NCBI GenBank assembly: GCA_017500935.1
Contig: JAFVXW010000018.1
Span: 36,051-100,050, forward strand
Length of the DNA stretch: 64,000 bases
Reading direction: 5' to 3'
Source of the DNA: Lachnospiraceae bacterium
GTDB taxonomy: Bacteria; Bacillota; Clostridia; Lachnospirales; Lachnospiraceae
A model generated the notes under the pieces. That model worked only from the letters and a program-made list of their open reading frames with translations. It ran no database searches and was not told where the DNA came from. The first letter of the stretch is position 1. Each line of letters starts with the position of its first letter. The translations under genes and the position numbers were made by a program. Shown here one piece after another: positions 1,921 through 30,598 of this stretch.

Positions 1921-3225
1921 TCAGTCCTCCTCTATCCGCACTGTAAGCTTTGCCCCATTTTGATATGCAGATTCCTGCAGCAATGCCTGCAGCTTCTGTT
2001 TTTCCAAAATGATCTCCTCCATCTCACCGGGAGCCATCACCGGGCGCTTTCTGTGAAGAAGCCGCTTGTCATCCAGATATACACTCACATAACAGCCTTT
2101 ATAAATCTTTCCGACGCGGAAACGTACGATCAGTTTATCTTCCATTTTTGCCGGATCAATACTGTTTGGAACAGTGTAGCGCACACCGTCTGCGGCAGTC
2201 ACCAAAATACGCTTTCCTTTTGCCGCAGCTTGCTGCTTTTCATCTGCTTCCTGTTTTCCCTGCAGATAGACAGCTGCCTGTTGTCCTGCTTTTTTAGCTT
2301 CCCCTGAAACATAATCCACCAAATCATGTACATGCAGCACATTGCCGCAGGCAAACACGCCTTCCAGACTGGTTTCCAGCGATTCATTGACAACCGGTCC
2401 GCCTGTCACCGGATTGATCTCCACGCCCATTTCTCTGGAAAGCTCGTTTTCCGGAAGCAGACCGCAGGACAGCAAAAGTGTGTCACAACTGTATTCTTCT
2501 TCTGTCCCTGCAATGGGCGTTCCGCTTTCATCCACCTGTGCAAGCACAACCGCTTCCACTCTTTCTTTTCCTTTGATATCCACCACGGTATGGGAAAGCA
2601 GCAGCGGAATGTCAAAATCCTCCAGACACTGCACAATATTTCGCTTTAAGCCGCCGGAATAAGGCATCAGCTCTGCCACAGCCTTTACTTTTGCCCCTTC
2701 CAGGGTCATACGGCGCGCCATGATCAGGCCGATATCGCCGGAGCCTAAGATCACCACTTCCCTGCCGGGTAAAAACCCTTCGATATTCACAAGCCGCTGT
2801 GCAGTGCCCGCCGAATAAATGCCTGCCGGGCGATATCCGGGGATATTGAGCGCGCCTCTGGGGCGTTCCCTGCATCCCATGGCCAGGATCAGTGCTTTTG
2901 TCTTAATCTGCACAAGTCCCTGCTCCCGGTTCAAAAGGGTTACTGTTTTGTCCTTGTCAATATGTACTGCCATGGTATTGGTCAGAAAAGGGATCTGCAG
3001 CGCCCTCACCTGCTCCACATATCTTCCGGCATATTCGGGGCCTGTCAGTTCTTCCTGAAAGGTATGCAGACCAAACCCGTTATGAATACACTGGTTTAAA
3101 ATACCGCCCAGCTCTTTTTCACGTTCAATGATCAGAATATCATCCACGCCGCTTTGCTTTGCCGCGATCGCTGCCGCCAGTCCCGCAGGACCGCCGCCGA
3201 TGATCACCAGTTCATGTTCTCTCAT
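1921..3225 (-). CDS. NAD(P)/FAD-dependent oxidoreductase (GlpA-associated)
   Basis: 434 residues. The N-terminal dinucleotide fold is GGGPAG at residues 10-15, the family-typical LGGILNQCIHNGFG follows, and a second Rossmann motif VVILGSGDIG lies near residue 160. This matches the pyridine-nucleotide disulfide oxidoreductase-like subunit that accompanies anaerobic glycerol-3-phosphate dehydrogenases in clostridia. It probably passes electrons from the dehydrogenase to NAD or another carrier. GGGGAGG precedes the ATG. It lies 3 bases from the GlpA-like gene upstream and 2 bases from DUF1667 downstream, which argues for one complex. The exact acceptor is unknown. Confidence 0.85.
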   Translation of the reverse strand: MREHELVIIGGGPAGLAAAIAAKQSGVDDILIIEREKELGGILNQCIHNGFGLHTFQEELTGPEYAGRYVEQVRALQIPFLTNTMAVHIDKDKTVTLLNREQGLVQIKTKALILAMGCRERPRGALNIPGYRPAGIYSAGTAQRLVNIEGFLPGREVVILGSGDIGLIMARRMTLEGAKVKAVAELMPYSGGLKRNIVQCLEDFDIPLLLSHTVVDIKGKERVEAVVLAQVDESGTPIAGTEEEYSCDTLLLSCGLLPENELSREMGVEINPVTGGPVVNESLETSLEGVFACGNVLHVHDLVDYVSGEAKKAGQQAAVYLQGKQEADEKQQAAAKGKRILVTAADGVRYTVPNSIDPAKMEDKLIVRFRVGKIYKGCYVSVYLDDKRLLHRKRPVMAPGEMEEIILEKQKLQALLQESAYQNGAKLTVRIEED

Positions 3226-3228
3226 CTG

Positions 3229-4674
3229 TCATACCTCCCCGATCCTGTCCTTGTTTGTTCCAACGATCAGCCGGGAAGGCGGGTTATTTTTGCATATTTC
3301 CTGCTGTCCCCTGCTGCATTCCCTTGCCAGGATCTCCATGGTTTTCGGGGTGCAAAAGCCTGCCTGACAGCGTCCCATACCGGCTCTGGTACGGCGCTTG
3401 ACACCGTCCAGTGTTGTCGCTCCAAGAGGCCTGTGAATGGCAGCCATGATATCGCCCTCCGTCACCAGCTCGCAGCGGCAGACAATCTGTCCGTACGCAG
3501 GATTTTTCTCCAGCATCCTCTGCTGCTCCTGTGCAGAACAGTCCATAAACAGATGCAGTCCTTTTCGTTCTTCTATAAAATCTTCTTTTTCTTTTAATTC
3601 GGTTAAAGATGCCATCAGGTCACGCACATACACACCGATGGCAGGTGCGCTGGTAAGGCCGGGAGACTCAATCCCTGCCACATCAATAAAGCCTTGGGCA
3701 TCCGCTGCTTCTTCAATGATAAATTCATGTCCGTCTTCATGGGCACGGAGTCCTGCAAAGGAAGTGATCACCTGACGCATGGGCACATTTTTGACAGAAA
3801 GTGCGCATTTTTCCTGTAAAGTCTGCAGTCCCTGTCTTGTGGTGGCCGTGTTTTCCTTATCCTCCACATCCACCGCAGTAGGACCCACCAGCAGATTTCC
3901 GTGCACGGTAGGCGTTACAAGCACGCCCTTGCCCATGGGACCGGGCAGCATAAAGATCGTATGGGAAACCAGATTACCGGCTGTTTTGTCCAGCAGACAG
4001 TAATCGCCGCGTCTTGCCGTGATATGGATTTTGCGTTCACTTACCATATTGTGAAATACGTCCGCATAAACACCCGCCGCATTGATCACAAACCGGCTTT
4101 CAAACATTCCTTTGCTTGTCTGCAGCTGATAGCCGGCCTCCGTTTTTATGATAGTTTCCACTTTGGTCTGCAGGAAAAATTCTGCGCCGTTTTCCGCCGC
4201 ATTCTCTGCATAGGCAATATTCATGGAAAACGGACAGATAATACCCGCACTGGGAATATGCAGTGCCGCATACACCCCGTCTGCCAGATTTGGTTCCAGC
4301 TCCAGTGCCTGACTGCGGTCCAAAATCCGCATGCCTTCCACACCGTTTTGACGTCCCTGCTCCAAAAGCTTCTCAAGTCCTGCCACACCTTCCGGTGCCG
4401 TACAAACCACCATGGAACCGTTTCTGACAAAGGGAAAATCCAGTTTCTTTGCCATCTCCTCCATCATCCGGTTTCCAGCCACGTTAAGCTTTGCCATCAG
4501 AGTGCCGGGCTTTGCATCAAATCCGCCGTGTACAATGGCACTGTTTGCCTTGCTGGTGCCTTCGCACACATCACTTTCCTTATCCAAAACTGCTATTTTC
4601 AACTGATATCGGGACAGTTCCCTGGCCACGGCACAGCCGGAAACCCCTGCACCGATAATGATCACATCATACAT
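3229..4674 (-). CDS. FAD-dependent glycerol-3-phosphate dehydrogenase-like protein (GlpA type)
   Basis: 481 residues from the ATG at 4674, chosen because GGGAG precedes it and the protein then begins with MYDVIIIGAGVSG, a classic FAD-binding fold. A longer open frame upstream has no such support. An N-terminal DAO-type oxidase domain is followed by a C-terminal BFD-like [2Fe-2S] domain with cysteines in VCRCE and GRCQAGFC. That architecture is GlpA-like, but related L-2-hydroxyglutarate or other hydroxyacid dehydrogenases share it. No glycerol kinase or facilitator is next door, so the substrate assignment rests on architecture and the partner genes. Confidence 0.8.
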   Translation of the reverse strand: MYDVIIIGAGVSGCAVARELSRYQLKIAVLDKESDVCEGTSKANSAIVHGGFDAKPGTLMAKLNVAGNRMMEEMAKKLDFPFVRNGSMVVCTAPEGVAGLEKLLEQGRQNGVEGMRILDRSQALELEPNLADGVYAALHIPSAGIICPFSMNIAYAENAAENGAEFFLQTKVETIIKTEAGYQLQTSKGMFESRFVINAAGVYADVFHNMVSERKIHITARRGDYCLLDKTAGNLVSHTIFMLPGPMGKGVLVTPTVHGNLLVGPTAVDVEDKENTATTRQGLQTLQEKCALSVKNVPMRQVITSFAGLRAHEDGHEFIIEEAADAQGFIDVAGIESPGLTSAPAIGVYVRDLMASLTELKEKEDFIEERKGLHLFMDCSAQEQQRMLEKNPAYGQIVCRCELVTEGDIMAAIHRPLGATTLDGVKRRTRAGMGRCQAGFCTPKTMEILARECSRGQQEICKNNPPSRLIVGTNKDRIGEV

Positions 4675-26937: not shown

Positions 26938-27323
26938 TATACCGGAATAAATGCCATCACCAGACAAAAAGCCGCAACAACAAAAACACAGTAATCTTCC
27001 CAGTAGAGCTTTCTTGCAATGATCATATCTTTAGGTTTTCTGGGATTTACAAAAATAGGATATTCTCTGTTTGCCTTATAATTGAGTTCCCCTGTTTTCT
27101 TAAGAGAAAAGCATTCAAAAGAACGACAGCTGTACCATTCGCTGCCAAGTGTGAACTCAAATACCGGTGCAAACTGCTGACCGTCTTTTTTGGGTGTCAT
27201 ACTGTCCCATCTGACAAATCTTCCAGGAATCTGCAGTTTGCAGTTAAGCTTTCTAAGCAGTATCCAGATACCGGCTGCCAATGCTATGATGCCGGCACAA
27301 AGCCATATTATTCTGATAATCAT
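26937..27323 (-). CDS. Small two-helix membrane protein (DUF3592-like)
   Basis: 128 residues: an N-terminal membrane helix (residues 3-22), a beta-rich soluble middle with a YPIFVNPRKPKDM segment, and a C-terminal helix (about 108-126). The middle section resembles DUF3592 proteins, where a short beta domain lies between two helices. Start after AGGAGG. Function unknown. Confidence 0.65.
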   Translation of the reverse strand: MIIRIIWLCAGIIALAAGIWILLRKLNCKLQIPGRFVRWDSMTPKKDGQQFAPVFEFTLGSEWYSCRSFECFSLKKTGELNYKANREYPIFVNPRKPKDMIIARKLYWEDYCVFVVAAFCLVMAFIPV

Positions 27324-27435
27324 TCTCTAATTCCTCCTGATTTCTATGTAACACAAACATATTCCAAGAATACATGAAAATCACAGGATTGTCCATACTC
27401 TAAATCACAGAACCGTTGTTTTGCAGCATTTTCTT

Positions 27436-28200
27436 TTACTTTAAATTGTTCAGAATCATTTCCTCCAGCACTCTGGAATTGATCGGCATCTTGGAAGTTT
27501 CAAATGTAAAGAGCAGCCTGTCTCCCCTGAAAATTCCGTTCTTTTCATACGCAAGAATTCTTCTTAACGCTTCCTCCTGATAACTTTCATCATCCATCAT
27601 CCCAAAATGCTCAAAATAGATTTCCTTCCTCTGTTTTACATCCAATACCGTGAAATCCGGATGAATTTGTCCATAGCCGTTTAAATACAGCGGATACTCA
27701 TACCGATACGGAATTCCATGCCGGTAAAGAATGTTTGCAATCAGCAATTCTGATTTTGACCGCATCCGTTCCCCTTTTTCCGAATAGAATTCCGGTGCAT
27801 CCTCCCGGAAGCCTTTTTTCTCGTATTCCACGTTTTCCCACTGTTTCACAAATTCCTCATCCGGCAGCCAGATTGGCTGTACATGCTTTTTGCGCCGTTC
27901 ATCCAGCATTTCATAAATTGCTTCACATTCTGTGCCCTGCCCCGTTTCCTGATAGAACCTGCTTACTTTCTGAAGCTGTTCCAATTCCTTCTGGGCTGTC
28001 CGAAGTACCTTTTCATCATAGTCTTTCTGGCAAAGCTGATGGATAAGCTTCTGATTCTTTTCCCGGATGTAGGTGCGTTTGCCGTGGTGATTGAGGTAAT
28101 ATTGTATATTTCCCTTGCAAACATTAATATTGAGTGTTCCTTCAGGTGCTTTCTGAAGTTCCTGCTCTTTTTTACTGATAATCTTTTGAAGAATTGTCAT
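27436..28200 (-). CDS. PD-(D/E)XK-nuclease-like protein of unknown function
   Basis: 254 residues. A basic N-terminal half (lysine-rich, with KRTYIREKNQK) precedes a fold with RSKSELLIANILY, a YEYPLYLNGY strand, HPDFTVLD and YFEHFGMMDD. The E...PDF...E-x-H spacing is that of PD-(D/E)XK nucleases. Similar proteins are frequent and unnamed in Lachnospiraceae, as I remember the family. AAGGAGAG lies close to the ATG. A stronger AAGGAGGAG sits 33 bases earlier before an in-frame ATT, so a longer form with a rare start is conceivable. It lies directly downstream of the palindrome array, which may contain its promoter and operators. Confidence 0.7.
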   Translation of the reverse strand: MTILQKIISKKEQELQKAPEGTLNINVCKGNIQYYLNHHGKRTYIREKNQKLIHQLCQKDYDEKVLRTAQKELEQLQKVSRFYQETGQGTECEAIYEMLDERRKKHVQPIWLPDEEFVKQWENVEYEKKGFREDAPEFYSEKGERMRSKSELLIANILYRHGIPYRYEYPLYLNGYGQIHPDFTVLDVKQRKEIYFEHFGMMDDESYQEEALRRILAYEKNGIFRGDRLLFTFETSKMPINSRVLEEMILNNLK

Positions 28201-28243
28201 TCTCTCCTTGATTTTTGCAGCAAAAATAATCGTTCTCCTCCTT

Positions 28244-28599
28244 ACTTATGTAATTTGTTATAATATAAGCCTTGTACATGTACTCATTTCTTGCATTTAA
28301 ACACTTTTACGTGTAAACACACAAAAATATGAAGTATAACACGTACAAATACAACGCTTATTCGTATTTACCTATGTAATATGTGAAAAATAAGATTGAT
28401 GACATGTACAGATTCTTTTTCTCATTATTCCTATACATGTCAGCTTAGATTAAATTGAATTTGCACATGTACCTCCCACTTTCTACAAAGCTTCAATACA
28501 TGTCATATCAGAAATATTAAGATTATTTACATGTACAAACTTTTTTTGATCTCACTTTCGTACATGTAAAACAAAGGAAATAACAAACTCAACATGCCA
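28244..28599. repeat. Phased array of twelve ACATGT-type palindromes (63-bp super-repeat)
   Basis: Six-base cores are centred at 28248.5, 28278.5, 28311.5, 28341.5, 28374.5, 28404.5, 28437.5, 28467.5, 28500.5, 28531.5, 28564.5 and 28594.5. Seven are exact ACATGT; the others differ by one or two bases (TTATGT, ACGTGT, ACACGT, CTATGT, ACATGC). Intervals are 30,33,30,33,30,33,30,33,31,33,30. Even sites read ACATGTAC and odd sites TACATGTmA, so orientation alternates. Stretches between are pyrimidine-rich (33 steps) or purine/AT-rich (30 steps). Some pairs match as longer inverted repeats (TTTACATGTAC with GTACATGTAAA; TGACATGTA with TACATGTCA). No ORF spans it. Confidence 0.9.
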
Positions 28600-28628
28600 A
28601 GACAGTCCAAGCTTATCCCAACACCTCA

Positions 28629-28656
28629 TCTGCGCCCACCAAAAAGTGGGCGCAGA
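28629..28656 (-). terminator. Hairpin after prfA
   Basis: An 11-bp perfect stem TCTGCGCCCAC/GTGGGCGCAGA with a 6-base loop, 12 bases past the prfA stop. It lacks a T run, so termination strength is uncertain. Confidence 0.55.
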
Positions 28657-28667
28657 CTCCAAAAACA

Positions 28668-29741
<1,074 letters not shown>

Positions 29742-29761
29742 TCTCTATTCTCCTCTCAAAA

Positions 29762-30598
29762 TCACATCATCGTTCCATAAACCACACGGTCATTGCCTGC
29801 AAAATCCTTCAGGGCTGTCACCGCTGCAAATCCGGCCTCTTCCATCAGCGCACAGACTGCTTCCCTCTGATCATAGCCGATCTCAAAAAAAAGCATTCCG
29901 CCGCCGCACAGATACTGCCGGCTGTCTGTAATAATTCTTTTATAAAAATCAAGTCCGTCTGTTCCGCCGTCCAATGCCATATGAGGTTCGTGATCCCGCA
30001 CTTCTTCCATCAATCCATCGATCACGCTGCTCTGAATATAGGGCGGATTGGAAACAATGATCTCAAATTTACCTTCTACATTGGAAAAAAGGTCGCTGTG
30101 CACAAATGTCACATCTTTATCCGGACATAAGCTGACTGCATTCGCAGACGCCACCGCCAGCGCTGCCTTTGAAAGATCGGCACCCACACCGATACAGTCA
30201 TTGGAATAATGCAAAAGACTTAACAAAATGCAGCCTGATCCGGTACACATATCAAGAATCCGGAAACCGTCATGCAAATGCCTTAACACTTCTTCAACCA
30301 GCACTTCCGTATCCTGTCTGGGCGTGAGTACGTTTTCACTGACAGCAAATTCCAGCCCCATAAATTCGCATACGCCGGTCAGATGCTGCAGCGGAATATG
30401 TTCTGCCCTGCGCCTGATCAAAGAAAGATAAGCGTCTGTCTCTGTATCCGCCACTTCCCGGTCACCATGCACCAAAAGATCATTTCTGTTTGTATGACAC
30501 ACATGCTCCAAAAGCAGACGGGCATCCCAGGCAGCATCCTCAATGCCTGCCTGCACCAGCAGCTCTTTTCCGTTTTCATAAAGGGCACGGTACATCAT
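29762..30598 (-). CDS. prmC: Release factor glutamine methyltransferase
   Basis: 278 residues. An N-terminal helical RF-binding domain, SAM motif ILDMCTGSGCILLSLL near residue 116, and the glutamine-methylase NPPYIQSS motif near 187. It methylates the GGQ glutamine of RF1/RF2. The start overlaps the end of the DUF1385 gene (ATGA). Confidence 0.96.
   Translation of the reverse strand: MMYRALYENGKELLVQAGIEDAAWDARLLLEHVCHTNRNDLLVHGDREVADTETDAYLSLIRRRAEHIPLQHLTGVCEFMGLEFAVSENVLTPRQDTEVLVEEVLRHLHDGFRILDMCTGSGCILLSLLHYSNDCIGVGADLSKAALAVASANAVSLCPDKDVTFVHSDLFSNVEGKFEIIVSNPPYIQSSVIDGLMEEVRDHEPHMALDGGTDGLDFYKRIITDSRQYLCGGGMLFFEIGYDQREAVCALMEEAGFAAVTALKDFAGNDRVVYGTMM

Follow-up and report, generated by a model that had tools for sequence, protein, structure and literature searches.

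An alternating inverted array of short DNA words and the neighbouring gene, which encodes a 254-amino-acid (aa) protein, form a pairing that recurs in many related gut bacteria, each with its own word. We found the pair in a 64,000-nucleotide stretch from a Lachnospiraceae bacterium (the window). At the level of sequence, the array, its helical phase, selection on its words, its linkage to the gene, a link between word and reader domain, and the existence of gene-less arrays are all established. The array is very probably a DNA binding array for the 254-aa protein. We favour, with some reserve, a broader reading as probable, namely a phased DNA platform bound by the protein together with a dispersed gene/array repeat system.

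A phased array of alternating words upstream of the gene

The array sits upstream of the 254-aa gene, in the interval separating that gene's start from the 3' neighbour's end, that of prfA (28668-29741, minus strand) (Table 1). The original prediction had listed seven exact and five near-exact ACATGT cores in alternating orientation and in helical phase. The seven exact cores (28276, 28402, 28435, 28465, 28498, 28529 and 28562, the last six forming the best-kept half) and the predicted intervals of 30, 33, 30, 33, 30, 33, 30, 33, 31, 33 and 30 bp were borne out. Three of the remaining sites carry one mismatch (ACGTGT at 28309, ACACGT at 28339 and ACATGC at 28592), and two, TTATGT at 28246 and CTATGT at 28372, are poor matches with two mismatches each. 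The 12 positions are phased at 10.5 bp with a coherence of R = 0.89, again as predicted. The oriented word TKACATGTAY, read on alternate strands, is exact at 5 of the 12 positions, has one mismatch at 28276 and two to five at the others (five at 28592). Because these mismatches rise at the outer sites, the predicted alternation is clear from 28402 to 28562 and weaker elsewhere.

Table 1. Features of the window discussed in the text (window coordinates)
Feature	Coordinates	Strand	Basis or properties
254-aa protein paired with the array	27436..28200	-	Predicted model, mean pLDDT 90.7
Residues 17-64, three-stranded sheet and start of the long helix, proposed word reader	28009..28152	-	Predicted structure; partial Mantel r = 0.18, p = 0.002
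Residues 137-254, PD-(D/E)XK-type nuclease domain	27439..27792	-	Invariant residues, PADLOC, Foldseek
Alternating inverted array, 12 lattice positions	28244..28599	.	Period 63 bp = 6 helical turns
Best-kept array half	28400..28569	.	Six exact ACATGT; oriented word approximately TKACATGTAY on alternate strands
Degenerate gene-proximal array half	28246..28377	.	Exact site 28276; decayed sites 28246, 28309, 28339, 28372

Shuffled sequences rarely or never reproduced these features. Triples of ACATGT at the array spacing occurred four times in the window, all within the array, and in 0 of 100 shuffles, while no shuffled 1-kb segment (n = 5,000) held more than five ACATGT. An equally good lattice fit for the five degenerate sites (28592 included) arose in 2 of 20,000 shuffles, and a lattice-free chain search allowing two mismatches reached at least 11 sites in 2 of 100. 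Within its own genome, three exact ACATGT at this spacing were present only in the window array, which gives no evidence that this word has dispersed there; such a triple was absent from every other genome among the 13 of the genus. A 32-bp match in another genome (G037) was considered as a second array and rejected, as it is no array.

The 254-aa protein has a predicted PD-(D/E)XK nuclease domain

The predicted model runs from an N-terminal three-stranded sheet through a long helix into a PD-(D/E)XK core, which makes the protein a putative nuclease. An acidic active-site motif (E151, P181-D182 and E197) sits in an alpha/beta core whose Foldseek matches, although weak, fall in the PD-(D/E)XK superfamily (Bax1, DrdV and Vsr; best E 0.014). 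E151, P181, D182, F183, E197 and H198 are invariant in 20-sequence alignments and K214 nearly so; K214 presumably supplies the missing active-site lysine. The C terminus of the PADLOC family PDC-S68 matches residues 137-249 (E = 1.8e-25), and the homologous domain also occurs inside large helicase or AAA-ATPase proteins. It is the most conserved region of the protein, with a mean entropy of 1.88 against 2.48-3.02 elsewhere.

The N-terminal two thirds had no PADLOC match, and the window protein had no confident family in Pfam (none at E ≤ 0.001), NCBIfam or PHROGs. Modelled alone, the N-terminal part reached a pLDDT of 95.6, with chromodomain-like folds as its best Foldseek matches (E 0.2). Neither domain has a confident fold match in the PDB, the best E values being 0.014 and 0.2. 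We had guessed from the sequence pattern that the N-terminal domain was AP2-like or an integrase arm, which Foldseek did not bear out. Among the window open reading frames inspected, no methyltransferase was noted adjoining the gene.

The gene is patchily distributed. Matches at E ≤ 1e-15 occurred in 83 of 392 genomes of the order and in 12 of 398 genomes of the phylum; five of these 12, in Lachnospiraceae, are full-length, and seven elsewhere cover the nuclease part only. Two of the 13 genomes of the genus carry the gene. One complete genome (G290) has seven full copies and one fragment, and another (G354) has three copies. We rejected a phage origin, for which there were three unannotated phage records (one spanning 96% of the protein) and seven viral contigs matching the nuclease domain only, and a plasmid origin, for which eight plasmid records each matched part of the protein and the plasmid collection held no full-length gene. 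An empty-site comparison at prfA across 12 genus genomes caught no insertion; the sequence after prfA differs in each of these 12 relatives and the neighbouring DNA is not comparable.

Arrays with locus-specific words accompany the gene across relatives

A scan of one genome per species yielded 21 loci encoding relatives of the 254-aa protein, and the 700 bp before each relative's gene revealed further alternating arrays with other words, such as TACCATGA/TCATGGTA in L023 and ACCTTGCC/GGCAAGGT in L030. These words are 6-8 bp long and differ between loci. We therefore counted arrays systematically, defining them as chains of one 8-mer with one mismatch allowed, in alternating orientation and within 1.5 kb on each side of the gene, with 19-50 bp between sites, a limit at which longer periods would be missed. 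The 139 gene copies comprised 4 from the genus scan, 21 from the one-genome-per-species scan, 29 from the order scan and 85 further ones; they were chosen among the best-scoring matches listed and are thus not a random sample. Two duplicates (L008 and L033) were removed, two copies appear twice (L043/L079 and L054/L086) and L113 is an overlapping fragment, for which reason we also give counts by protein cluster, which allow for duplicate copies.

Chains of at least five sites accompanied 105 of the 139 homologous copies and 1 of 139 shuffles; at six or more sites the figures were 90 and 0. By protein cluster (70% aa identity), 85 of 112 had a chain of at least five. None of 26 control loci did (12 prfA loci of the genus, and 7 viral and 7 phylum loci with the nuclease domain only). 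The predicted tie between the array and the adjacent PD-(D/E)XK-like gene is thus real. Co-occurrence is nonetheless mixed: 34 of the 139 copies have no chain of at least five sites, many of them with three or four sites and some at contig ends, and arrays without the gene exist, yet the spacing is conserved.

The gene-linked arrays in the 105 copies have 5-30 sites (median 9). They lie upstream of the gene in 91 and downstream in 14, with a median of 109 bp from array end to conserved protein start. This proximity agrees with simple autoregulation, in which the array would serve the gene as one large operator, but we consider that account improbable, given the 14 downstream arrays, arrays of up to 37 sites and arrays with no gene at all. 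The earlier suggestion of an operator or a centromere-like array was right in tying the array to the adjacent gene; it did not anticipate that the array is no one-off but belongs to a large family, with gene-less members in three genomes (G804, G354 and G290).

Two loci deserve separate mention. At L029 (~2501-3492), in a metagenome-assembled genome, the gene is apparently broken, with only its C-terminal part in frame, and the adjoining array is well kept. In the window's own genome, the array of a paralog (L009; contig C36, ~1034-1405) changes word partway: TTTGCATG/CATGCAAA gives way to TTTGAATG/CAGTCAAA, as though a transition had been caught.

Array periods fall on whole helical turns

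We compared periods using one array per protein cluster with at least six sites (74 clusters). They fell into classes of 51-54, 61-65 and 70-75 bp, with none at 55-60 or 66-69 bp. The class means of 52.70, 62.96 and 73.44 bp correspond to 5.02, 6.00 and 6.99 turns of 10.5 bp. It is the sum of neighbouring spacings that is phased (R = 0.81 at 10.5 bp), each single spacing alone giving R = 0.11, and re-pairing spacings between arrays reached the observed phasing in 0 of 20,000 trials. The best-fitting helical repeat was 10.6 bp. Two five-site arrays (L085 and L086), outside this test, have a period of 84-85 bp.

Whole-turn periods are characteristic of proteins bound along a single face of B-DNA, and periods of five, six and seven turns indicate that the arrays act as double-stranded DNA. 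The predicted helical phasing is upheld.

Words are conserved, spacers drift and the N-terminal domain tracks the word

Nine orthologous pairs of gene-linked arrays could be aligned, after three unalignable pairs were dropped. Differences affected 26 of 584 core positions and 364 of 2,007 spacer positions (Fisher p = 2.5e-19, to be read with the caveat that pairs share loci and are not independent); looser pooling that kept L017/L018 gave 57 of 639 and 438 of 2,157. By these alignments, selection maintains the words but not the spacers. The predicted conservation of cores amid drifting spacers is thereby upheld, and the sequence evidence likewise supports the accompanying view that protein binding, rather than recent duplication, underlies it.

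That the arrays are chance patterns or functionless decayed tandem repeats is hardly credible. Some arrays, for example L271, do contain repeated spacers of the kind that tandem duplication would give, but the shuffles, the control loci, the conservation of core over spacer and the helical quantisation all weigh strongly against this account.

Folded RNA, the other option originally entertained, was unsupported. Bases beside neighbouring inverted cores paired no better than those beside distant ones (0.277 versus 0.288, p = 0.28, 69 arrays), giving no indication of hairpins in either RNA or DNA, and an apparent long hairpin seen by eye in L012 is not general. With Rfam also empty at E ≤ 1 over window positions 27000-30000, an RNA element was rejected.

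That an unusual nuclease works here with a guide-RNA array, of a CRISPR-like or TIGR-like type, is very improbable. Alternating short repeats and spacers beside a nuclease gene do resemble the TIGR-Tas layout as given in the available part of its description (PMC12045711), but that same description, set against the helical periods found here, led us to reject a guide array. The period is quantised, the spacers are passed on by descent and diverge instead of being exchanged, and we detected no Nop-like family match, no extra pairing and no meaningful phage match of the window array (two phage records, 31 bp each, E = 0.1).

Across 73 arrays, word similarity tracked identity in residues 17-64 (partial r = 0.18, Mantel p = 0.002, corrected for the other regions), an effect modest in size, and tracked neither residues 65-136 (r = 0.01) nor the nuclease domain (r = 0.03, p = 0.20). 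All 19 syntenic pairs compared at a shared chromosomal place (pairs share loci) showed lower conservation in the N-terminal than in the C-terminal part. The word changes along with it: examples are GGCAGG in L049, GACAGG in L084 and GGCATG in L082.

Arrays occur away from the gene

Three genomes (G804, G354 and G290) have arrays at places whose fetched sequence holds no full gene copy, and in two of them, G804 and G354, these arrays carry the word of the gene-linked array. Eight of ten other TACCAT...ATGGTA places in G804, the home of L023, have chains of 6-12 sites; two (L211 and L212) have no chain. A control using the reversed pattern is no neutral one for this search, since the reversed order also occurs within alternating arrays. 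None of the ten has a full gene in the fetched sequence, although at L213 a gene match runs off the edge of the retrieved sequence, ~2.5 kb from the array. One of the G804 arrays is found in the L1-L10 ribosomal gene interval, another behind pheT. The L1-L10 array also occurs in G807 and partly in G806. Comparison of its G804 and G807 versions shows 1 difference in 88 core positions and 152 in 377 spacer positions, with the order of spacings preserved, a 75-bp step included.

In the complete genome G354, one word occurs at five places, with the gene at one and absent from the other four (6.0-6.5 kb fetched). Spacers are similar from place to place (inner 0.58 versus 0.34 when permuted, outer 0.51 versus 0.31; 9 of 10 place pairs with z > 2 for inner and outer each), which points to copying. 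The G804 arrays are less uniform: pairs with z > 2 numbered 16 of 21 for 23-nt and 9 of 21 for 24-nt inner spacers, and 2 of 21 for 25-nt and 5 of 10 for 26-nt outer spacers. The outer spacers of different G804 loci, above all the 25-nt class, thus show little common ancestry, and the sign of copying is not general. Several of the GTACCAT arrays of G354 (L267-L271) are flanked by sites of another kind, CCCCATA/TGGGGTA, making the arrays mosaic.

Surveyed blind, 800 kb of G290 (30% of the main contig, picked in part so that known genes were covered) yielded 20 chains of at least five sites, and shuffles yielded 0. Of the ten chains with at least six sites, five lie beside the gene and five away from it. 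The latter include two places with the common word TAAGTGTA and a 37-site alternating AGGCAGTA array at 27/25-bp spacing (L232, 19048-19991; G290:C1:219048-219991), which has no member of the gene family in its vicinity. TAAGTGTA is not in any gene-linked array found in G290. One gene copy there (L167, G290:C1:1027085) has no nearby array, and the orphan arrays L226 and L234 share TAAGTGTA; gene and orphan arrays might belong together.

These gene-less arrays bear on two further accounts. If the nuclease were inactive or secondary, the protein could bridge dispersed arrays and organise the chromosome or insulate transcription units, as DNA-binding structuring proteins do. Intergenic gene-less arrays at L1-L10 and behind pheT, one of them kept in place in three genomes with words and spacing conserved, are in keeping with such a role, and helical phasing suits a structural complex. 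Still, we regard chromosome architecture as unlikely: the nuclease domain, with its invariant E/PD/E residues, is the most conserved part of the protein, words and reader domains change fast between relatives, which is unusual for a housekeeping system, and only 2 of 13 genus genomes have the gene.

We judge rather improbable a defence nuclease held in check, in which the array would titrate or cap the nuclease and silence its promoter until an invader disturbed the array and freed the enzyme. Gene-less and downstream arrays do not need such silencing, the N-terminal two thirds of the protein lack any PADLOC match, and, as the seven viral-contig matches are to the nuclease domain only, there is no phage-borne whole-gene counterpart among the viral contigs. 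What speaks for defence is the domain shared with the candidate PDC-S68 helicase proteins, the upstream position of most arrays and the multiple copies in G290.

Discussion

We prefer a dispersed system of the REP/BIME-RAYT kind on three grounds: the arrays away from the gene, the copying in G354 and turnover in step with the reader. In the mechanism that we propose, the array would be a double-stranded DNA binding platform for the neighbouring gene's protein. Each 6-8 bp word would be read by one protomer through the N-terminal beta-sheet domain, consistent with the statistical link between residues 17-64 and the word, and protomers on adjacent inverted words may pair symmetrically. With periods of whole helical turns, the complexes would align on one face in a regular nucleoprotein row; the phasing is observed and the complex is what we infer from it. 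Binding upstream of its own gene might also allow the protein to regulate that gene. Gene and arrays together would form a dispersed repeat system, with array copies in some genomes lying intergenically, away from the gene.

The nuclease domain would most likely cut or nick at or near the arrays, and the ensuing recombination could expand, homogenise and spread them. That the nuclease drives array turnover is, on the sequences compared, a tentative proposal. A stronger version, in which one PD-(D/E)XK protein with a fast-changing DNA reader drives, in step, the turnover of all cognate phased arrays of a genome, is possible but doubtful. DNA readers and satellite-like arrays co-evolve at eukaryotic hotspots and centromeres, and the proposed system would be a bacterial counterpart.

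If the proposal is correct, these arrays are a bacterial repeat class with the geometry of the DNA helix written into the genome, in periods of five, six and seven turns. Dozens of natural reader-word pairs would make the recognition code of a small nuclease-fused beta-sheet domain learnable from sequence and testable. The persistence of repeat arrays such as BIMEs would become testable as well, with words, readers and arrays traceable through the same places in related species.

Comparison with known systems

The pairing shares parts with several known systems. CRISPR arrays have near-identical repeats in one orientation, exchangeable spacers and Cas proteins; here the cores alternate, the spacers are inherited and drift, and no Cas-type family was found for the 254-aa gene in Pfam or NCBIfam. 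Plasmid iterons and centromeres fit poorly with the chromosome-type neighbours, such as prfA. The original prediction had likewise recognised no CRISPR, known iteron set or known centromere. TIGR-Tas systems also pair a nuclease-type gene with short alternating repeats, specific to the locus, on either its upstream or its downstream side. Their 8-12 nt repeats, 9-nt spacers, 36-nt guides and Nop domain, as given in the available text of PMC12045711, differ from the present arrays, in which periods are 51-75 bp instead of a 36-nt unit and the spacers are far longer, helix-quantised and drifting; Pfam and NCBIfam gave no Nop-domain match for the window protein.

On the protein side, PDC-S68 and other helicase or AAA-ATPase proteins have a homologous C-terminal nuclease domain. 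PDC-S68-type proteins are large and lack the N-terminal reader domain, and the seven phylum loci with only the nuclease domain have no array. Type II restriction enzymes and Vsr-like endonucleases share the PD-(D/E)XK fold, as the weak Foldseek matches to DrdV and Vsr indicate. Unlike Type II restriction enzymes, however, the present protein has its presumptive binding words arrayed beside its gene, with no methyltransferase among the neighbours inspected.

The closest parallel in layout is REP/BIME-RAYT. According to the available portion of PMC2817692, these systems also have intergenic arrays of short alternating units, a single cognate enzyme gene that commonly adjoins one of the arrays, more arrays at other genomic sites and repeat classes mixed at one place. 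Regular alternating intergenic repeats are present here too, and they extend beyond the enzyme gene in G804, G354 and G290, although not for the window word. The two differ in enzyme and repeat: RAYT is an HUH tyrosine transposase (IS200/IS605-like) and the enzyme here is of PD-(D/E)XK type, and a REP repeat is an imperfect, stem-loop-forming palindrome of 20-40 bp (PMC3733652, in the part available), whereas the unit here is a 6-8 bp word with no extra pairing in 69 arrays. As both enzyme type and repeat type fail to correspond, this is no RAYT system. Its period, moreover, is set to whole helical turns, unlike that of REP/BIME, and G354 has about five array places for one word where REP/BIME have hundreds. 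No description of such arrays was found in the sequence libraries scanned or in the literature searched, whose coverage left out preprints and most subscription papers. In aggregate, these comparisons suggest that the pairing of gene and array is an unrecognised kind of bacterial repeat system, sharing with BIMEs its layout alone.
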